In this document: positions 30,180 through 50,424 of the stretch, piece after piece | How the letters are laid out: each line of letters begins with the position of its first letter | Position numbering within the stretch: the first letter of the stretch is position 1 | Source of the DNA: Streptomyces coeruleorubidus | Lineage (GTDB): Bacteria; Actinomycetota; Actinomycetes; Streptomycetales; Streptomycetaceae | Length of the DNA stretch: 64,000 bases | Direction of reading: 5' to 3' | Assembly: GCF_028885415.1 (NCBI RefSeq) | Contig: NZ_CP118527.1 | Span: 1-64,000 of the forward strand | Notes under the pieces: model-generated | The model's input: only the letters and a program-made list of their open reading frames with translations | What the model was told of the DNA's origin: nothing | The model's database searches: none | Made by a program: the position numbers and the translations under genes

Positions 30180-33100
30180 TCAGTGCCCGAGTGCCCTGCC
30201 GGTCTCCCCGCGCAGGAGGTCAACGTAGTCGCGGGTCCAGTCCTCGATCGTGGGGCGGTCCCACAGGTCTGCCGAGTACTCGACGAAGCCCTTCAGTTCG
30301 TCGCCGGCCGGGACGAGGCCGAAGGTGAGCAACGTACGGGACGCGGCGGGGGCCAGGTCCTCCACGGCCGTGGTCAGGCCGGGCAGTTCCACCTCGGCGT
30401 CCAGCGAGCTCTGGTAGGCGAAGCCGACGTCCAGCCGGTCCGGCACCTCGACGCCCGTGCGCTCTTGCAACGCGGGGGCGATCCGGCGCACCGGCACGGC
30501 CCGGTCCATGCATTCCACCGCCGTACGGCGACGCGGTCCGTCAGGGCGGCGAAGGAACCGGCGGCGCCGCCCGCACGGGCAGCGCGAAGCCGGAGATCGT
30601 GCAGGCCAGCAGGGATTCGAACGCGCGGCGCTCACGGTTGGCGTAGGAGATGTTGAACACCACGTCGGCCTGCCCGGACTTCTGCGCGAGCAGTCGGCCC
30701 AGGGCCGCCGCGGTGACCACGAACGGCGTCGTGCCCCGCTGGCGCGCGAGGCGTTCGACGGCGGAGCGCACATCGGCGGGGACGGTGAACATCACGGCGC
30801 CGCCCCGGCCGCTCGGCTGCTCGGGCCGGGGCCGGTCCAGGGGCAGGCCGACCGTGAACGGCACGCCGTCCAGCTCGCGCAGCCAGAAGTCCAGGTTGCG
30901 TTCGTCGGCGGCCTCGTCGGCCCGTTCCCGCTGCCAGCGGGCGTACTGGGCGGGCTGGCACCGCACGGGCGGCAGGGCGTGGGGGTCGCCCCGCAGGGCG
31001 GAGCCGTAGAGCGCGGCCAGTTCCTTCAGCAGCAGGCTGGCGGACCATCCGTCGCAGGCGGAGTGGTGCAGGACGAGGAGCAGGACCCAGGTGCGTTCGC
31101 CGGTGCGCAGCAGGCGCAGGGACATCGGCGTGCCGCGGGTGGGGTCGACGGGCGTTTCGGCGGCCCGGGTGCTCGCCTGGTCCAGGGCTGGTTGCCGCTC
31201 GTGCGCGGGGCGTGCGGTGAGGTCCTCCAGCGGCAGCTGAACGGGGCAGGGCCGCAGTACCTGCTGTTCCCAGCCGTTCCCGCTGCGGGCCAGGCGGGTC
31301 CGCAGTCCCTCGTGCCGTTCGACGAGCTGGGTCAGGGCGGTGCGCAGGGCCGCGATGTCCAGGTTCCCGGAGAGGGTGATCCGCAGGGCGACGTTGAAGA
31401 CCTGCGGGAGGGGGTGTTCGGCGTGCACCGTGGCGAAGCGGGACTGCTGGGCGGTGGCGGGTGCCCGGCGCTCCACCGGGCCGGGGTCGTCGGTCTCGGC
31501 CTCGGTTTCCGTCTCGGTTTCGGTTTCGGCCTCCGCCTCGGTTTCGGCCTCGGTTTCGGTCTCGGCCGACGGGCTCGGCTTCATCGCCGCGAGCGTTTCG
31601 GCCAGGTGGGTCGTCATGGCCCGCAGTGTCGGCTCCTGGTAGAAGCCCAGCATCGGGTATTCGGTGCCGAACTCCTCCCGGACCTGGTTGACCAGCCGCA
31701 TCGCGGTGATCGAGTGGCCGCCCAGGTCGAAGAACGAAGTGTCGGCCGTGACGGTGTCGGCGTCGATGCCGAACTCGGCTGCCCACAGGCGCCGTACGCG
31801 CCGTTCGATGTCCGTGCGGTGGCCGGACGCCGGATCCCCGCCGGTGCCGCTCGGCCTGTGGCCCGGTGCCGTGGTGACGAGGTCGGGCGCCGGCAGCGCG
31901 GTGCGGTCCAGCTTGCCGTTGCCCGTCAGGGGCAGGGCGGTCGGGATCCGCCAGGCACGCGGCACCAGGTACTCCGGGAGCCGGGCGGCCAGTTCCTCGG
32001 CCAGGAGGCCGGCGAGCGCCTGCCGGTCGTCGGCCGAGACGCCGATCGGGCCGGCGGGGACGGCGTAGGCCGCCAGATAGGCCTCCCCCTGGTCGTTGCG
32101 CCGGGCCAGCACGGCCGCCTCGCGCACCCCGGCCAGGGCGTTGAGCACGCGGGAGACCTCCTCCGGCTCGACGCGGAAGCCCCGGATCTTGACCTGGTCG
32201 TCGGCCCGGCCGCAGAACTCCAGTGTCCCGTCACCGCTCCAGCGGACCAGGTCGCCGGTGCGGTACCTGCGGGCATCCGGGCCGCGGTCGGGGTCCGGCA
32301 GGAAGCGCTCAGCGGTGAGCTCGGGGCGGTGCAGGTAGCCGAGGGCCACGCCCGGGCCGCCGACGTACAGCTCCCCCACCGTGCCGACGGGTACGGGGCT
32401 GCCGGACTCGTCGAGCACGCTCAGCGTCACGTTGTCGACCGGGCCTCCGATCGCGATGGAACGGGCGGGGTCGACTCCTGGCCGACTCCCTGGCCGACTC
32501 CCTGGCCGACTCCCTGCGGGGACACCGTTTCCGTGGTGCACAGGACGGTGACCTCGGTGGGCCCGTACACGTTCACCGTCTCGTACGGCGCCTCGGACCG
32601 CGGGCGGGTGCGCAGCACGTCACCGCCCAGCAGCAGATGCCGCAGCGGGGGCTGATCGCCCGCTCGCAGCCGCAGGAGCTGTTCGCCCAGGGCGGTGGGG
32701 AGGATGGAGAAGGTGACGCCCTGCTCGGTGTACCACCGGGCCAGGGCGAGCGGATCCCTGCGCATGTCCTCGCCGGCGATCGTGACCGACGCTCCCGCGG
32801 TGAGCGCCGGCCAGATCTCCAGGACCGAGGCGTCGAAGCTCTGGCTGCACACGACGGCGCTGCGGTCGGCCGGGGTGGAGGCGAAGCGCCGGTGCTGCCA
32901 CTCGCACAGGTCGACCACGCCGCGGTGCGTCAACATGACACCCTTGGGGGTGCCGGTGCTGCCCGAGGTGTACAGGACGCAGCACGCGGACCGGGTGTCG
33001 GGGGCGGGCATGGTGGCGTGCGGGCGGTGCGGCCGGTCGCGTCGGGTGGTACGACAGTCACGTGCCCGGGCAGGTTCAGCGCGGTGGCCGCCTCGTGCGT

Positions 33101-36100
33101 GGACACCAGGGTTCGGGCCCCGCACTCGGCGATGACCTGCTCGGCGCGTGCCCGCCCCAGGGACGGGTCGAGCGGCACATAGGCACGGCCCGCCTTGAGC
33201 GTGGCGAGCATGGCGACTACCAGGTCGGTGGAGCGTGGCAGCCACAGCGCCACCACGTCGGCGTCGCCGTCGGTTGTGGTGTGCTGCTCGCGCAGGACTG
33301 CGGCCAATTGCCCGGCGTGCTCTTCCAGTTCGCGGTAGGTGAGGCGGCTGGTGCCGCTGATCACCGCCGTGCTGTCCGGCCGGGCGGCTGCCTGCCGGGC
33401 GACGAGGGCGTGGACGGTGGTGTCCGCGGGCGGGCGGGCCGGGCCGCGCTGCCAGGACCGCGGTACGGGCTCCCCTTCGGCGGCGGTCTCGACGGCGGCC
33501 GGGGCGAGCCGCGACAGGGGCGCATCGGGAGTGTCGACAGCGGCGGTGATCAGGTCCGGAAGGTGGTGAAGAACCCCTCGACGGTGTGCTGGTCGAACAG
33601 GTCGGTGTTGTACTCCAGATGGCAGCGGATGCCCTGCGGCTGGTCGGTGAAGTAGACGGTGAGGTCCGTCAGCGCCTTGTCCGGACCCACGTCCAGCGGG
33701 ATGGCCTCGATGCCGGGCAGGTCAAAACGGAACGGCTCGGCACGCTGGAACTCGGCGAACGCCTGGAACACCGGCGTCCGGTCGACCGCCCTGACCGGGG
33801 CGAGTTCCCGCACGACCTTCTCGAACGGCACGCGCGCGTGGTCGTACGCGTCGAGGGCAACCGAGCGCACCCGGTCCAGCAGCGCGGTGAACGCCGGGTC
33901 GCCGGACAGGTCGAAGCGCAGCGCGAGCGTGTTCACGAAGAACCCGAGCACGTGCTCGGCCCGCTCGGGCCGGTCCGAGAAGGGGGTGCCGACGACGATG
34001 TCCGTCTGCCCGGTGATCCTGTGCAGCATCGCCGCGTACCCGGCGAGCAGCGTCATGAACAGGGTGCTGCGGCGGGTTCGGCTCAACTCGCGCAGCCTGC
34101 AGGAGAGTTCCGGGTCGAGGGTGTGGAAGACCGCCCGGCCGTTGGAGGTCATCGGCGACGGGCGCGGCCGGTCGGTGGGCAGGGCGAGGACGGGCAGGTC
34201 GCCGGCGAGGGTGCGGTGCCAGTGGGCCAGGTCGGCTTCGGTCTCGGGGCTGTTCGCCGACGCCGCCTGTTCCCTCGCGTGCTCGACGCAGCTCCAGGTG
34301 AGGGCCGGGAGGTCGGGGGCGGTGCCGTCGCGTTCGGCCCGGTAGAGGGCGGAAACATCGCGGGCGAGGATGGTGGCCGAAGCCGCGTCGACCACGATGT
34401 GGTGCAGGGACAGCACGAGGACGTGCTGCGCCTCGGCGAGCCTGACGAGCCGGGTGACGAACAGCGGGCCTTCCGCCAGGTCGAAGCGGCGTGCGCTCTC
34501 GGCCGCCAGGACGTCCTGGAGCGTGGTCCGGGTACTGCCGGTGCCGTCCACGACCTCGAAGTCGGGCTCGGCGGATGCCCGCACCAGCTGACGCGGTTCG
34601 CCCCCATCTCCCGGAAGACGGTGCGCAGGCCCTCGTGCCGGGCGACGAGGCCGCGTAATGCCGCGTGCAGGGCGGGTACGTCGAGGGGGCCGTCGAGACG
34701 GACGGCCTTGACCTCGTTGTAGGCGGTGCGCCCCGGGAGCAGGCGCTCCAGGAACCAGATCCGCTCCTGACCCGGCGACAAAGGGGCCTCGGCAGGGGCG
34801 CTTTCGCCAGGGACCGGTCCGGCAGTGGACGGCCGGTGGTAGTGGCGGCGCAGCGCGTCCAGGCGGGGCAGTCCCGAGCGCAGCTCGTCGGGTGCGACAC
34901 CGAAGTCGACGAGCGCCACGATCTCGTCTGCGCCCGCCGCGGTCACCGCGTCCACGACCGGGCGGACACTGTCCACCGTGCCGATCAGGGCGCGCTGGTC
35001 GCAGTAGCGGCCGTAGGCGCGGCGGAACACGGCCTCCAGGTCGTCCTCGCTGAGCGCGGCCAGATCGACGCTGTGCCCGAGGCTGTTGGTGACGCCGCTG
35101 AACAGGGACAGGGAGGCGCGCATGTAGCGGGACAGGGGTTCGTACGCCTGAGTGCGTGCGGTGTCGTGGTCCTCCGCGAGGTAGGTGTGCAGCAGGACCG
35201 CCACCCGTCCGGCATCCGGGTCCAGGCCGTGCCGGGCCCGTGCACTGCGGTAGCGGGCGATGTTGTCCCGGAGCTGTTCGACGCTCTGGGTCATGAGGTT
35301 GGTGACGATGCCCAGGCCGTGGCGGGCGGCCAGTTCGTACGAGGCGGGGTTTGCGACGACGGCGGTGTACATGGGCGGGGCGTCCTGCACCGGCCGCGGG
35401 AAGAGCCGCAGGTCGGCGGCCTCGCCGTCACCGGTGGTGCGACGCACCGCCTCGCCGCGCCAGAACCTCCGCACCTCCTCCAGCTGTTCGAACATCAGCT
35501 CCCTGTGCCGGCCGAAACGGTCCGGGAAGAAGGCGAAGTCCTTGGAACTCCAGCCACTGGCGACACCGATGCCGACGCGCCCGCCGGAGAGGTTGTCGAC
35601 CATCGACCACTCCTCCGCGACCCGGATCGGGTCGTGCAGGGGCAGGACGACCGAGCCCGCGTTGAGGCGGATGCGCTCGGTCCCACGGGACAGCGCGGCC
35701 GCGAGCACCGCCGGGTTGGGGAAGAGGCCTCCGAAGGAGTGGAAGTGGCGCTCGGGCATCCACAGGGCATGGAAACCGTGCCGGTCGGCGAACCGGGCCA
35801 CCTCCATCAGGAGTTCGTACTGGCCGTGCCGGGGCGCCGAGGCGTCCTGCGGGTAGTCGCCGAAGAAGTAGACGCTGAAGTCGGCGGTACGTGGGGCGGT
35901 TTCGGCCGCGAGTGCCGTGCGGGTCCCGGTGACCGCCGCGGTGTTCCAGGCCATGGCGGCAACGGGGGCGGACGTCGACGCCGGCGCGGTCGGTGCCGGT
36001 GCCTGGTCCGGTTCCGGGGGCGTGGCCTTCGGCGCTACGGGCCGCCCGCCCGGGAAGAACCCGGCCGACCGCAGCTCGCGTAGCGAGTCCCGTACGGCGT

Positions 36101-37592
36101 CGGCCACGAACTCGATGTCGCTGTCCGAGTGGGCCGTGGAGAGGAAGAAGTTGCGCCACTCCCAGACGTGCACGCCGCGCAGCATCAGGTGGTGGTAGAG
36201 GAGCTCCATGTCGGCGCGGTGCTCGAAGCGGAACTGGGAGCCGAAGTGGGTCATCCGCAGCGGGTACTCCTCGGCCTCGAAGAAGCCGTTGAGCGTCGTG
36301 GCCAGTTCCGCGGTACGCGCGTTCAGGCGCTCCTGGAGGTGCGGGCTGTGCTCCTTGAGGTGGGTGAGGACGGCACGGGCGGCGACCATCGACACCGGGT
36401 GCTGGATGTACGTACCGCCGAAGAACGTCGTGTCGGCAGGCGGGTAACTGTCGTCGCCGTACGACCAGTAGCCGCCGTCGACGCCGTCCATGATGTCGGC
36501 ACGGCCCGCGATGGCGCCGATGGGAAAGCCGCCGCCGAGGAGCTTGCCGTAGGTGGCGAGGTCGGGGGTCACGCCGTACAGCTCCTGCGCGCCGCGCGGG
36601 GCGGGGCGGAAACCGGTCAGCATCTCGTCGAAGAGCAGCACGATGCCGTGGCGGCGGGTCAGCTCCCGCAACTGGCGTACGAACTCGCCCGGTTGGAGCG
36701 AGGGGTGCCTGCTCTGCACCGGCTCCACGACGACCGCTGCGATGTCGTCGGCGTGCCGGGTGATCGTCTCCAGGGCGGTGTCGCTGCCGTATTCGAGGAC
36801 CAGCAGATCGGAGACGGCGGCCTGCGGGATGCCCCTGGAGACGGGCACGGTGATCTGGTCGGCGCCGCTGCCCGAGGCGCGGCCGAGGACGTTGTCGGCG
36901 TGGCCGTGGTACGCGCCCAGGAAGGTGACGATCTTGTCGCGGCCGGTGGCGGCGCGGGCCAGGCGGATGGCCGCCGAGTTCGCCTCCGTGCCGGAGTTGG
37001 CGAAGGCCACCCGCTCCAGCCCGGTGAGTTCGGCGAGGAGTTCCGCCGCCTCGCCGGTCTCGATGGTGCGGGGGCCGAGCTGGATGCCGCGGGACAGGTG
37101 CTCGCGCACGGCCTCGCTGACGAAGTCCGGCTCGTGGCCGAAGAGGAGCACGCCGAAGCCCATGGTGATGTCGACGTACTCGTTGCCGTCGGCGTCCTCC
37201 AGCCGCGCCCCGCTCGCGCGGCGGCCCGCGACCGGGTACAGCATCTCCTTCGTGGCGCTGCGGAAGCCGACGACGGCACGGCTGTCGGCCAGGACGCGGC
37301 GGTAGCGCTGGGCGATCTGCTTGGAGGTGGGGGTCTTGGCGGTGTAGCGGCGGACGAGGTCGTCCAGATGCCTCTGCTGGGTGTGCGGGGAGGCGTCCCG
37401 CACCATGCCGGAGTTCCTCGCTACCGACACTCGGGGGCCGTGGACACGCGCCGGTTCCGGGGACCCCTGTTCCGGGCCGGGGGTTCCGTCGCCGATCTGC
37501 TCGCCGATCTGCTCGGCGATCCGCCGGGAGAGCTCCTCCATCGCCGCCAGGTCACGGTCCAGTGCGGCGGATACGCCGTTCAGCCCGCTCAC
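30180..37592 (-). CDS. hybrid synthetase: aminotransferase - luciferase-like monooxygenase - C - A - PCP - C (several frameshifts)
   Basis: Starts at GTG 37592 (GTGA overlap with the PKS stop); 2472 residues after six one-base repairs (near 34600, 33565, 33020, 32495, 30570, 30525). Domains in order: N-terminal coiled coil (10-30); class III PLP aminotransferase (~64-510; Lys in [12 protein letters not shown]); luciferase-like monooxygenase (~569-914; [29 protein letters not shown]); condensation domain (~934-1347; HHIVVDAAS); adenylation (~1374-1880; [43 protein letters not shown]); PCP ([12 protein letters not shown]); a Glu-Thr repeat linker; and a terminal condensation domain (HHSACDGWS). 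No thioesterase or reductase follows. The order predicts beta-amination and oxygenation of the PKS-bound acyl chain, then addition of one amino acid. Confidence 0.85.
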
Positions 37593-40500
37593 TTGGCCAC
37601 CTTGCCGTTGAGCCGCTCCGTCACCGAGGCCGTCTGGAGAGCCAGCAGCTGGGAGAGCTGGGACATCATCTGGAGCTGTATCCGGGACATCTGCTGGATC
37701 TTGTGGGCCAGATCCTCCAGCTCCTCGCGAGTCGCGTACTCCGGAGCCGGGGCAGGTGCGGGAGTCGTGGCGGGAGTGGGCGCGGACAGGGCGATCGCGG
37801 GCTCGGGCACGGCAGGGGCGGGTGCTTGCGGTGCGCCCGCCTGCATGGCGACGGCCGGAGGCTGCGCGGCGGGCTCCGGCGCCCCGGACCTCTCCCCCAC
37901 GGCTTCCGCCGAACCCGTCCCGGCGTTCGGCATACGGGCGACGATGAACTCCGCGAGCCGCCGCGGCGTGCCCGTCTCCTCCAGCAGCTGCCGCATCGTC
38001 ACCTTGACCTGGTGCTCCTGTTCCAGTTCCCGCAGCACGCTGATCATCTGCAGCGAGTCGGCGCCGAGCTCGAAGAAGTTCGCGTCGCCGACGATCGCCG
38101 ACGGATCCCCGCCGAGATGCCGGGCGGTCGCATCGACGATGCTGTGCAGTACCCGTGCGACCGCTGCCTCTTGCTGAACCACTTCGGCTCCCTTGCTCGC
38201 TGATGTTCCCCTGTTGAGGGCCGTCGGCTCCGGCCCCGTCCAGTGGTCCTGGTGCTGGAATCGGTATCCGGGCAGCGGGATGCGTCTGCCGCCGCTGCCG
38301 GCCAGGAGCGTCTCCCAGGCGACGTCCGCTCCCGCGCAGTGCAGCCCCGCGGCCGCTCCCCAGAGGGCGCCGAGCCCGGTGCCGCGCCGTAGGGACGGCA
38401 GTGCCCGTACGTCGGGCAGCGCCCGGCGCGCCAGACCGCTGAGGGTGGTGTGCGGCCCGATCTCCAGCAGTACGTCGGGCTGCTCGGCGCCGATGCCGTG
38501 CAGCGCCTGGTCGAAGCGGACGGGCTCGCGGGTGTGCCGTAGGAAGTGGTCCGCGTCGGGGATCCAGCCGGGCGGGCGGGTCACACCGTCCAGGGCGCTG
38601 ACGAACGGAAGCAGCACCGGCCGGAAGTCCGCATCGTCGAGGGTCTTCCGGAACTCCTCCAGCATCGGTTCCATCGAGGCGGTGTGGAAGGCGCGGGTGA
38701 CCGGCAGCCGATGACCGGGTGTGCCCCGGTCGTCCAGCAGTTCGCACGCCCGCTCGACGGCCGCCACGGGCCCGGCGAGCACCTGGGCGCGGTCCCCGTT
38801 GGACACGGCAGGCTCCAGTCCGGGGATCTCGGCGGCCAGGGCGAGGGCGCTCGCCCGGTCGAGCGGCGCGGCCACCATCGCGCCCGGTGCGCAGCGCTGC
38901 CGCATCAGCCGGCCGCGTTCGGTGGTCAGGCGCAGACCGTCCTCGAGCGACAGGGCTCCGGCCGCGTACAGGGCGGCGTACTCCCCGACGCTGTGCCCGG
39001 TCACGGCCTGTGGTTCGACGCCGCAGTCGCGCCACAGCCGGACGAGGGCGCATTGCAGTGCGAACAGCGCGGGCTGCGCGATGTCCGTGTCTCCGAGCGG
39101 CGCCTCCCCCGAGTCCTCCGTACACAGTGCCGCGAGCAGGGAGTCGCCGGTGAGGTCGCGGTAGTGCTGTTCGCAGGTGTCGAGCACTTGGCGTGCGGCG
39201 GGGAAACGCGCGTAGAGAGCGGAGGCCATGCCGGGGTGGTGGCCGCCCTGGCCGGTGAACTGGAACGCCACGAGCGGGGCTCCCTCCCGGGGGCCGTCCC
39301 CGTGGTCACCGCCGCTCCGGTGGTTGCCGTGGTTCCTGCGAGCCACGCGTCGAGGACGTCGGCGAGGGCTGCCGGGGTGGAGCCGCGGGCCGCGAGGCGG
39401 TGGCGGCCGTGGGCACGGCCGACGGCGGCGGTGGTGACGAGGTCCGACAGCTGCGGTGCGGGTGGCTGCCGTAACCGGTCGCGGAAGGCGCGGGCGTTGG
39501 CCGCGAGGGCTCGGGGGCTGCTCGCGGAGACGAGCAGCACGTCGGGAGGCGCGGCCGAGCCGGTCCTGGGCGCGGGTTCGGGGCCTGTTCCAGGATCAGA
39601 TGGACGTTGGTGCCGCCGACGCCGAGTGAGGTCAGGCCCGCGCGTCGGGGTATGTCGCTCGCGGGCCAGGGCCGGGCGGTCCGGGGGATGTAGAAGGGGC
39701 TGCGGTCGAGGTCGATGCGGGGGTTGGGCTCGGTGAAGTTCGCCATCGGCGGGATCACGCCGTGGCGCAGGACCAGCAGGGTCTTGACGAGGCCGGCCAG
39801 TCCGGAGGCGGCGTCGAGGTGGCCGATGTTGGCCTTGGCCGAGCCGAGGGCGCAGAAGCCTTCGCGGGCGGTGTCCTCGCGGTAGGCGCCGGCCGCGCCT
39901 TCGAACTCGATCGGGTCGCCCTTGAGCGTGCCGGTGCCGTGCGTCTCCAGGTAGCCGATGGTGTCCGCGCCGACGTCCGCGCGTCGCAGCGCCTGGCGGA
40001 TGGCGGCGTGCTGGCACTGGGCGCTCGGCGCGGTGAACGCCGATTTGCCCGCGCCGTCGTTGCTGATGCCCCAGCCGCGGATGACGCCGTGGATGGTGTC
40101 GCCGTCGGCGACCGCCCGGGCCAGCCTCTTCAGTACGACGGCCAAGACGCCGGTGCCTCCCACCGTGCCGTCGGCGCCGGCGTCGAACGCCCGCAGGCGG
40201 CCGGACCTGGACAGGATCGAGCCCTTGACGTGGCGGTAGCCCAGGACCTGCGGAACATGGACGGCGGTGGCGCCGACGAGGGCGATGTCGCAGTCGCCCA
40301 TGAGCAGCGACTGGGCGGCCGCCTGCACGCCGACCAGGGAACTGGAGCAGCCTGTCTGGAGGTTGACGGCCGGGCCGGTCAGGCCCAGCCGGTAGGCGAC
40401 GCGGGTGGCGGCGAAGTCGGCGTAGTTGCCGACGGTGATCTGCATGTTCGCCGCCCAGTCGGACGTGGGGTGCCTGGGCAGGACGTTGTTGAGCAGGTAG

Positions 40501-40900
40501 TTCTGGAAGGTGTACAGGTGGTATCCGGTGCTGGCGTAGACGCCGACGCGAGTGCCGCCGCGTTCGTCCGGGTAGCCGGCGTTCTCCAGGGCGTGCTGGG
40601 CACATTCCAGGAACATGCGCTGCTGCGGGTCGGTGAGCCGGGCCTCGCGGGGCTCATCGCGAAGTGCTGTGCGTCGAAGCCGGCGATGTCGTCCAGCAGG
40701 CCGGAGGCGCCGACGAAGTCCTCCGCCTCGTACTCCTCGGCGGGGACACCGGCGGCGGCGAGTTCCTCGTCGGTGAAGCGGGTGATGCAATCGGTGCCGT
40801 CCCGGATGATCCGCCAGAAGTCCTCGGGAGTGTCGGCGCCGGGCAGCCGGAAGGCCATGCCGATGACTGCCATCCGCGGGTCGGGCTCGCTCGTGCTCAT
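37589..40900 (-). CDS. type I polyketide synthase, KS-AT-ACP (three frameshifts)
   Basis: ATG 40900 begins MSTSEPDPRMAVIGMAFRLP; 1104 residues after three one-base repairs (near 40660, 39600, 39310). KS (~7-430) has the active Cys in TGCSSSLVG and the two His in ETHGTGT and ANIGHLDAASG. AT (~540-850) has GQGGHHPGM, GHSVGEYAAL and AFHTASM, pointing to malonyl-CoA. ACP (~917-987) has FFELGADSLQM. No ketoreductase, dehydratase or loading domain is present, so the product stays a beta-ketoacyl-ACP and the starter must come in trans. A C-terminal coiled coil (EELEDLAHKIQQMSRIQLQM) looks like a docking domain. The start overlaps the MFS stop (TGATG). Confidence 0.87.
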
Positions 40901-42177
40901 CAGCCGCGTCCTTCCGTCACGCTCGGTCTGTCGCGGCCTGCGGGTTCTTCCGCGGGCGGGGCGGGTGTCGCTCTGCCCCGGCTGACCAGCCACAGCAGAA
41001 GGGCCGCGCACAGGGCGATCGCGAGGCCGTGGAACGCGGCCACCACCTGGAGCGGCGAGAAGGTCTCCAGGAGGGCGCCGCTGACGAGCATGCCCAGGCC
41101 AAAACCGGTGTTCTCGGCCGAGGCGGTGAGTCCGAAGAGGCGGCCGCGCTGGTCGTCGGGGGCGGTCTGGAGCCTCGACACGTACACGATCTCGGTGAAT
41201 CCGTCGGCGGCTCCGGCGACGAGCGCGGCGATGACGGCGGGCACGGTCGGCAGCCCGCAGAAGACCACGATGAACCCGGCCGACATCACACAGGCGCCGA
41301 GCGCGAACGCCCGCTCCCCCGGTGTCCGCCCGGTCCTCTTGGTCACCCGGCCGATCACCTGCTGGGCGACGATGTTGCCGATGGCCCACGTGGCCCAGAA
41401 CTGGCTGATGAACGTGGCCGGATGATCCGGGTCCAGGCTGCTGGAGTAGAGGGGGAGGGCGACGTTGTGGGACGACGAGCCCAGCCCGTCGACCGCCCGG
41501 ATGGCGATCATCGCCATCAGCAGCGGTGCCGTGCCCAGCAGCATCCTGGCCGTCCAGCGCGCGGCGCCGAGGTCCTTCGCGGAGCCGCCGCCCGTGGCGT
41601 CGGGGGTCGCTGCGTCGGTGGCCGCCCTGGTGCGGACGGGAAGCAGGGACAGCACGGTCGCGGAGACCAGGAAGGTCCCGGCGTCCAGCGCGAACGCCGC
41701 GGAGTAGCCGAGCTCTGCGACCACCACGCCCGAGGAGGCGAATCCGGCGATCATGGCGAGTGAACGCCCGGTCACCAGCAGCCCGTTGGCCCGGACCCGG
41801 TGCTCGGCGCCGACGATCTCCGGGATGCTGCTGCGCAGGGCCACCTGGGAGAGTGTCGAGCAGCCGCCGGTGACCACGGCCAGGACGTACAGCAGTCCCG
41901 GGCGCGTGCCCTCGGGGGCGAGCAGCAGCGACAGCAGGGCCACGGCCTGGCACACGTCGGCGCCGACCATCAGGCGCTTGCGGTCGTGGACCGAGACGAG
42001 CCGTCCGCTCACCCAGCCCGACACGACACTGGTCGCCAGCCGTACGGCCATGAAGAGGCCGGCGGCCAGCGCGCTGCCGGTGGCGTCGTAGACGAAGACG
42101 TTCAGCGCCACCATGTTCAGGTAACTGCCGTACGCCGAGATGCCGTTGCCCAGGACGAGCAGACGGAAGTACCTCAT
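40900..42177 (-). CDS. MFS transporter of the PKS-NRPS cluster
   Basis: A 425-residue protein with about 12 membrane segments: LLVLGNGISAYGSYLNMVAL, SGWVSGRLVSVHDRKRLMVG (MFS loop 2-3), AFALGACVMSAGFIVVFCGL. It resembles EntS/macrolide-exporter type MFS proteins. The start chosen is ATG 42177 (MRYFRLLVLGNG) with AGGGGAAGG directly upstream; the ATG at 42198 lies before this site. Its stop overlaps the PKS start by one base, so it is the first gene of a coupled three-gene operon and the likely product exporter. Confidence 0.88.
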   Translation of the reverse strand: MRYFRLLVLGNGISAYGSYLNMVALNVFVYDATGSALAAGLFMAVRLATSVVSGWVSGRLVSVHDRKRLMVGADVCQAVALLSLLLAPEGTRPGLLYVLAVVTGGCSTLSQVALRSSIPEIVGAEHRVRANGLLVTGRSLAMIAGFASSGVVVAELGYSAAFALDAGTFLVSATVLSLLPVRTRAATDAATPDATGGGSAKDLGAARWTARMLLGTAPLLMAMIAIRAVDGLGSSSHNVALPLYSSSLDPDHPATFISQFWATWAIGNIVAQQVIGRVTKRTGRTPGERAFALGACVMSAGFIVVFCGLPTVPAVIAALVAGAADGFTEIVYVSRLQTAPDDQRGRLFGLTASAENTGFGLGMLVSGALLETFSPLQVVAAFHGLAIALCAALLLWLVSRGRATPAPPAEEPAGRDRPSVTEGRG

Positions 42178-42516
42178 GCACCTTCCCCTGGTCTGCATGA
42201 AGGGTGTGACTGGAGTGAGACTTGGATCGCCCTGCCCGACTGGTCAGCGGTGATACGGGATCCAGGCGGACGGCGGTCGCCGACGTGGTCGCCCGTCGCG
42301 CCCGCCGGTCACGCCCCCTTGCAGGCACAGCACAAAAGCCATTCCCCCCAATACGCCGCCGGACGACGGCTATTGGTCCGCAACCCAAGCAGATCCGGAC
42401 AGGCGCGTTCAAGACTCCGAGAGTGGTCTAGACGACTTTCGGTCCGGATTTGGCGATTTCGGAGCGCTCGGGATCGGACCTGACCGTGCCTGGCGCTCAG
42501 CGTCGCAGGTCCGCCT
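42178..42516. promoter_or_regulatory. region upstream of the PKS-NRPS operon
   Basis: About 340 bp without a gene I can support. It must hold the promoter of the MFS-PKS-NRPS operon, but I see no clear -35/-10 pair. Its far end is the junction with the truncated GH127 gene (about 42517), so the operon appears to have been placed next to unrelated DNA. Confidence 0.35.
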
Positions 42517-48534: not shown

Positions 48535-50175
<1,641 letters not shown>

Positions 50176-50424
50176 GGGCCCGCTCCTCCACATGGGTGTA
50201 ATTCTTCGCTTGCGCTCTCATCCTTCCTCGTCACAGCCGTCACGCGCGAGAGGGGCACCGCTGTGAGGGCCGGATGTGCGCCAAGCCACGCGGCGGACCG
50301 GCGGCCCGGCTGTCCGCGCCAGGAACCACGAGGAGGCGGCGCCGCGTACCACCGGGACACCCGGTGCTGCGCCGCGCCGCCTTCCGGCCTTGTGGGCGTC
50401 CTGCCGGGCGCCCTCCGCCTCGGG

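Follow-up and report, generated by a model that had tools for sequence, protein, structure and literature searches.

The stretch analysed here (the window, 64,000 nucleotides) comprises bases 1-64,000 of the single 9.41-Mb contig NZ_CP118527.1 from Streptomyces coeruleorubidus. Its minus strand carries, from 42.2 to 30.18 kb, a trio of genes whose domains were assigned by means of Pfam (Table 1). The first codes for an exporter of the major facilitator superfamily (MFS). The second codes for a polyketide synthase (PKS) with a ketosynthase (KS), an acyltransferase (AT) and an acyl carrier protein (ACP) domain. The third codes for a nonribosomal peptide synthetase (NRPS) that consists of a class III aminotransferase (AMT), a luciferase-like monooxygenase (LLM), a condensation (C), an adenylation (A) and a peptidyl carrier protein (PCP) domain, and ends in a second C domain. 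This is the order that the initial annotation of the stretch had proposed, together with an alpha-hydroxy-beta-amino acyl peptide as the product and possibly a warhead similar to that of bestatin or amastatin.

Table 1. The three genes of the trio and the domains of the NRPS (positions in the window)
Feature	Position	Strand	Evidence
MFS exporter	40900..42198	-	MFS_1 E 3.7e-35 (Pfam, piece 40900-42243)
PKS (KS-AT-ACP)	37589..40903	-	Pfam ketoacyl-synt N and C, Acyl_transf_1, PP-binding (37589 to about 40880)
NRPS (AMT-LLM-C-A-PCP-C)	30180-37592	-	Aminotran_3, Bac_luciferase, Condensation, AMP-binding, PP-binding, Condensation (Pfam)
Class III aminotransferase (AMT) domain	36045..37382	-	Aminotran_3 E 2e-54; lysine motif YGKLLGGG 36528-36551
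Flavin mononucleotide (FMN)-dependent luciferase-like monooxygenase (LLM) domain, MupA/Atu3671 family	34848..35879	-	Bac_luciferase E 1.4e-54; TIGR04020 449.5 bits
First condensation domain (HHIVVDA)	33555..34790	-	PF00668 in two pieces; motif 34384-34404
Adenylation domain	31912..33500, upper edge approximate	-	PF00501/PF13193 in pieces
Peptidyl carrier protein (LGGHS)	31603..31803	-	PF00550 E 5.8e-18; motif 31711-31725
Terminal condensation domain (HHSACDG), last NRPS domain	30180..31473	-	PF00668 E 2e-44; motif 31048-31068

The PKS start at 40903 was deduced from the gene overlap in relatives, and the reading of this gene is spread over several frames owing to three indels. Its KS contains the motifs QTGCSSS (core 40338-40355), HGTGT (39927-39941) and NIGH (39819-39830), its AT the motifs GHSVGE (38981-38998) and RAFH (38684-38695), and its ACP the motif GADSL (38051-38065). 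ATs of this motif type (RAFH or HAFH, with GHSVGE) typically accept malonyl units. Several profiles of the NRPS were matched only in part because of frame breaks: the first C domain covers positions 4-65 and 96-427 of 456, the A domain 152-384 of 384 and the terminal C domain 2-290 of 456. Piece 30180-30773, at the end of the gene, had no Pfam match on its own; by eye, its end looks like the end of P0083, the corresponding NRPS of S. olivoreticuli ATCC 31159. All 12 catalytic motifs that were sought are present, spread over three frames, and an inactive AMT or LLM core, which the initial annotation had named as a possible objection, was not found. No ketoreductase (KR), dehydratase, enoylreductase or thioesterase (TE) was matched in ten pieces of the trio (Pfam, E 0.01). 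The PKS has no detected loading module, and the NRPS ends in the C domain without a detectable TE. A 1.5-kb DNA probe returned no second copy of the trio in the genome: apart from itself it gave partial matches, the best of them with 68% along 384 bases, when 40 of the 540 candidates from a first look were scored.

The trio has many relatives. Scanning the collected genomes yielded 77 related loci, taken from the best 80 among 240 stretches that had been confirmed. At the protein level 990 relatives were obtained; of the 120 that were listed, 113 have 2,300-2,750 amino acids, and nearly all of the listed relatives with names are from Streptomyces. Gene families were formed with a home-made gene caller and a clustering that required >35% identity and 60% coverage, several loci being cut by contig ends. 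The NRPS family occurs in 69 of the 77 loci, the MFS family in 56 and the PKS family in 54; the next family reaches 12. The overlapping start and stop codons pointed out in the initial annotation recur: PKS and NRPS genes overlap by 4 bases in 45 loci, and MFS and PKS genes by 4 bases in 26 and by 1 base in 20 of the 54 loci with a PKS. The flanking genes vary from clade to clade, and the trio therefore behaves as a self-contained unit. None of the families in the 77 loci is a conserved loading or resistance gene beside the trio. The widest neighbouring families are a small LuxR-type helix-turn-helix protein (12 loci, one member tested), a GH64 glucanase (11), a C domain (10) and a hexapeptide acyltransferase (9). 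The last of these directly follows the trio in its nine loci, among them ATCC 31159, whose member (L043, 17248-18006) is a hexapeptide-repeat acyltransferase; several of the hosts are verticillate Streptomyces. A different arrangement was observed in Marinactinospora thermotolerans (L042, 2970-15994), where an AMP-binding-KR-PCP protein, possibly a keto-acid loader, precedes a 3,068-residue AMT-LLM synthetase.

In the 113 relatives of 2,300-2,750 residues, the first C domain contains HHxxxDA in 113 and the terminal C domain HHxxCDG in 112, the remaining one having HHSTCDA. A match to the lysine motif of the AMT was obtained in 110 of these proteins, and one to LGGHSI in 105. In the 54 PKS loci, HGTGT occurs in 54 and GHSVGE in 48, and the AT contains RAFH in 45 and HAFH in nine. 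The cysteine of the KS is present in the window, in the relative L001 (S. coeruleorubidus ATCC 13740) and in 27 PKS proteins that had been selected by script for holding ACSS. Prevalence was estimated from 36 same-genus genomes; 18 of these had a TIGR04020 match at 1e-60 and were searched with the AMT-LLM piece. An AMT-LLM gene with both domains matched was found in nine of the 36 (64-90% identity; one in two parts, 66% and 59%), a count that refers to this gene alone.

The chemistry of the AMT-LLM pair is indicated by its nearest solved relatives. Over its residues 71-516, the AMT piece matched mycosubtilin synthase A (6kfm; E 4.2e-136), and the LLM piece matched PuwE (6ket; E 1.4e-108). Only three distinct solved sequences fell below 1e-60, two being mycosubtilin synthase A and the other PuwE. 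The LLM further scored 449.5 bits with TIGR04020 (cut-off 244.45), a profile that exceeded its cut-off in none of 14 control genomes and twice each in the genome of the window and in the S. coeruleorubidus genome used for comparison. With the PuwE-type AMT-LLM synthases the trio shares a KS-AT-ACP module without KR, a MycA-type AMT with its lysine motif and an LLM whose nearest solved relative is PuwE. By homology, AMT and LLM probably build an alpha-hydroxy-beta-amino (3-amino-2-hydroxy) acyl unit. The proposal of the initial annotation is supported in part, namely in the acyl logic of the product. The same genome encodes a second LLM megasynthase (L089:4007-15169, within 2,838,000-2,856,000), a protein of 3,720 residues with the order AMP-binding, KS, AT, ACP, LLM, C, A, PCP and C. 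No aminotransferase was matched in it, which suggests that an LLM can act on a beta-keto thioester. Matches to the LLM region with 54-59% identity in frames of 3,606-3,984 residues occurred in five of the 18 same-genus genomes searched.

The specificity code of the A domain in the window reads D-A-L-S-L-G-V-V-L-K, with the Ser at position 278 taken by eye and the Lys by rule. This code is nearly fixed among close relatives. Among 110 readings obtained from the 120 listed proteins, 97 are DAL-LGVVL, two DGL-MGIVL and one DAM-LGVVL; six DAL and four DAM readings have positions 299/301 unread and end in VVL, and about ten proteins gave no reading. The NRPS of ATCC 31159 has the code DALSLGIVLK (by eye), which describes a hydrophobic pocket. 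Among solved chains that match in one stretch, the best is a fragment of microcystin synthetase B (8hlk, 333.5 bits); the first A domain of LgrA scores 308 bits. LgrA chains have the top whole-chain score because they contain two A domains per chain; LgrA as the best solved match was therefore discarded in favour of the higher single stretch. The microcystin synthetase B fragment selects leucine and the first A domain of LgrA selects valine. The pocket of the A domain is probably aliphatic.

Bestatin is 3-amino-2-hydroxy-4-phenylbutanoyl-leucine, and the head group of amastatin is 3-amino-2-hydroxy-5-methylhexanoate. The predicted plan of an acyl group linked to an amino acid equals such a head group plus an aliphatic residue. 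According to the title of a paper cited in PMC12472026, S. olivoreticuli ATCC 31159 can produce bestatin. The genome of this strain contains a locus (L043) with all three genes. The only TIGR04020 match above cut-off in this genome is that of the trio (444 bits; the next has 136), and so is the only close AMT match (87% identity; the next has 40% in a frame of 449 residues). Its PKS shares 73% identity with the L001 protein as a whole, and 81% within the KS portion. In a FastTree phylogeny of 53 rows having both motif anchors, its AMT-LLM region falls within the Streptomyces trio family. The presence of the trio in a bestatin producer strengthens the guess of the initial annotation, which had named bestatin and amastatin as models. 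It is plausible to assume, with a probability of roughly 0.6, that the three genes form a self-contained assembly line whose product, a peptide with an alpha-hydroxy-beta-amino acyl group, falls into the bestatin/amastatin class. That it belongs to the bestatin family pathway itself would be close to an even bet. The narrower view, in which the bestatin family of inhibitors is made by this very trio, the loader-free KS selecting the acyl-CoA and hence the head group and the terminal C domain selecting the C-terminal residue, is tentative and falls just short of even.

The following pathway can be proposed. Since no loading gene is conserved beside the PKS, the KS would be primed directly by a short acyl-CoA of primary metabolism, the best candidates being phenylacetyl-CoA and isovaleryl-CoA. 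One extension, presumably with malonyl, would follow without reduction of the beta-keto group. The in-line AMT would then convert the beta-ketone to an amine and the LLM would hydroxylate the alpha carbon, in either order. A phenylacetyl starter would thus give 3-amino-2-hydroxy-4-phenylbutanoate, the head of bestatin, and an isovaleryl starter 3-amino-2-hydroxy-5-methylhexanoate, the head of amastatin. The first C domain would couple the acyl group to one amino acid, probably an aliphatic one, on the PCP. Release, the usual task of a TE, would fall to the terminal C domain, which would transfer the chain to a free amino acid or small peptide or else hydrolyse it, and the MFS protein would export the product. 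For bestatin, phenylacetyl plus malonyl, aminated, hydroxylated and linked to leucine, would be the expected output of the order KS-AT-ACP-AMT-LLM-C-A-PCP. A phenylacetate-CoA ligase gene is present in one frame and over cut-off in both S. olivoreticuli ATCC 31159 and the S. coeruleorubidus genome used for comparison; it indicates a supply of the starter and nothing beyond that.

Several observations weigh against an assignment to the bestatin family. The choice of the starter is not readable from the sequence, and neither is a leucine code with confidence from the A domain. In distant loci the code differs (DAL-IGIIA in L044, DAT-MGIVA in L045, DAV-VGIVA in L051, DGM-LGVVA in L048 and DAL-AGIVV in L034). 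Bestatin, a dipeptide acid, needs no terminal C domain. The AMT-LLM gene occurs in about one in four of the sampled same-genus genomes, so that its co-occurrence with bestatin production in one strain could be a coincidence. Finally, nine breaks interrupt the copy in the window in its present sequence.

A rather unlikely alternative keeps the chemistry but changes the starter: from an acetyl, isobutyryl, anteiso or longer fatty acyl group the trio would make a compound that has nothing to do with bestatin and might serve in signalling or as an amide that binds metal. The unpredictable starter and the frequency of the AMT-LLM gene agree with this, as does the MFS protein of L001, which matched EntS (and also TIGR00900), each under cut-off. 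Against it, the trio is the sole AMT-LLM system above the cut-offs used in the bestatin producer, and no acyl-ligase or ACP family is broadly conserved nearby in the 77 loci.

The terminal C domain raises the question of chain release. In P0083, too, no TE was found and the terminal C motif (HHSMCDG) is intact. In L028, L034, L035 and L041 the NRPS stops at the PCP and is followed by a separate gene for about 500 residues; the family of this stand-alone size (cluster 5) occurs in ten loci, although its members in L067 and L074 are probably fragments of a split NRPS. The L028 protein, the one member tested, consists of a TubC-type docking domain and a C domain. That the domain is retained even when split off as a gene of its own argues that it works. 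For its reaction, the bacillamide synthetase BmdB offers a precedent: according to PMC8795117, its terminal C domain condenses a free amine, tryptamine. Release onto a free amine is about as likely as not in the trio. Given the domain, the product may carry one more amino acid, as phebestin and probestin do, bestatin then being the shorter or hydrolysed product. An improbable alternative is that the terminal C domain closes a ring by attack of the beta-amine or the alpha-hydroxyl group, which would yield a small cyclic amide or depsipeptide instead of a linear inhibitor. The lack of a detected TE, the HHxxCDG motif in 112 of the 113 relatives and the maintenance of the C domain as a separate gene are all compatible with it; the bacterial precedent BmdB, however, is an intermolecular amine condensation.

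The trio can be compared with several known systems. The iturin/mycosubtilin protein MycA has an in-line class III AMT, which the AMT of the trio matches as described above, and is not known to have an LLM. It differs in that an acyl ligase resides within the same protein (PMC4219810); no AMP-binding match precedes the PKS module in the trio, as none was found in the PKS of L001 and L043 and the sole one in P0083 is the A domain. The puwainaphycin pathway, to which PuwE belongs, shares one PKS module, a class III AMT, a monooxygenase and one NRPS module, whose A domain is predicted to take valine. According to PMC4219810, it also needs a fatty acyl-AMP ligase (FAAL), an ACP, an additional PKS module, other NRPS proteins and a TE. 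The trio has no loading gene, adds one amino acid and ends in a C domain. In the microginin synthetase (mic), a PKS module with AMT gives rise to beta-amino-alpha-hydroxydecanoate, and microginins inhibit aminopeptidase M; mic differs in loading via a FAAL (MicA) and an ACP (MicB), in its two to six NRPS modules and in its TE (PMC12250027). The term monooxygenase is absent from this review. No family for such FAAL/ACP loading or TE release is broadly conserved in the 77 loci. The tychonamide and floridanemamide clusters tie the AMT-monooxygenase domain pair to a 3-amino-2-hydroxy residue, but are large many-module cyanobacterial clusters with a starter derived from an alpha-keto acid (2026 preprint PMC13252402). 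BmdB resembles the trio in its terminal C domain and in being part of a three-protein system; it has no PKS, AMT or LLM, and its acceptor tryptamine is supplied by a decarboxylase of the cluster (PMC8795117). No gene cluster for bestatin or amastatin, no actinobacterial AMT-LLM cluster and no actinobacterial cluster of the same order with another product were found in the open-access literature searched, which omits most subscription journals. The AMT-LLM module is known from cyanobacteria, whereas a loader-free and TE-free actinobacterial trio was not met in this literature.

The frameshifts noted in the initial annotation are real as sequence. Alignment with L001 gave 93.7% identity over 12,008 aligned bases and 27 gaps, 13 of which are not multiples of three. 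Nine of these 13 lie inside genes (three in the PKS and six in the NRPS); the other four fall into flanking DNA or the edge of the alignment. A single base is missing at eight of the nine sites, and the ninth has five extra bases; the remaining gaps inside the PKS and NRPS genes are multiples of three. Frame jumps were counted per 10 kb with a simple composition model. The four quarters of the window gave 0, 1.9, 4.4 and 1.3, and 20-kb samples of the contig at 64, 100, 200 and 500 kb gave 3.5, 4.0, 7.5 and 4.5. The value was 0 at 1.0, 5.0, 7.0 and 9.2 Mb, 0.6 at 2.84 Mb, and 1.0 and 1.5 close to the right end. In the relatives L001, L006 and L008 it was 0.4, 0 and 0. The phenylacetate-CoA ligase gene of the same genome (556556-557760) is likewise split over two frames, each piece scoring under cut-off. 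Because frame jumps are raised in the four samples from 64 to 520 kb and are 0 in those at 1.0, 5.0, 7.0 and 9.2 Mb, and because the ligase gene at 556 kb is also split, the nine breaks are probably assembly errors of a poorly polished left arm and not signs of gene decay. A decaying pseudogene cluster without product, for which the nine indels in PKS and NRPS would speak, was considered and set aside as very improbable in view of the retained motifs, the predominance of single missing bases with all other in-gene gaps in multiples of three, and the regional excess of frame jumps. Outside the trio, the window contains on its minus strand a phosphoglucomutase/phosphomannomutase gene (48535-50217) with an open frame of 560 residues.

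Bestatin is in use as a drug, under the name ubenimex, and as a standard inhibitor in the laboratory. With three genes on 12 kb and a single module of each kind, the cassette would offer an easy system for dissecting the AMT- and LLM-dependent assembly of alpha-hydroxy-beta-amino acids. If the assignment to the bestatin family is true, a self-sufficient cassette of MFS, PKS and NRPS would be present in about a quarter of the sampled same-genus genomes, as judged from the count of the AMT-LLM gene. The spread of the trio would then mean that many Streptomyces make such aminopeptidase inhibitors unnoticed.

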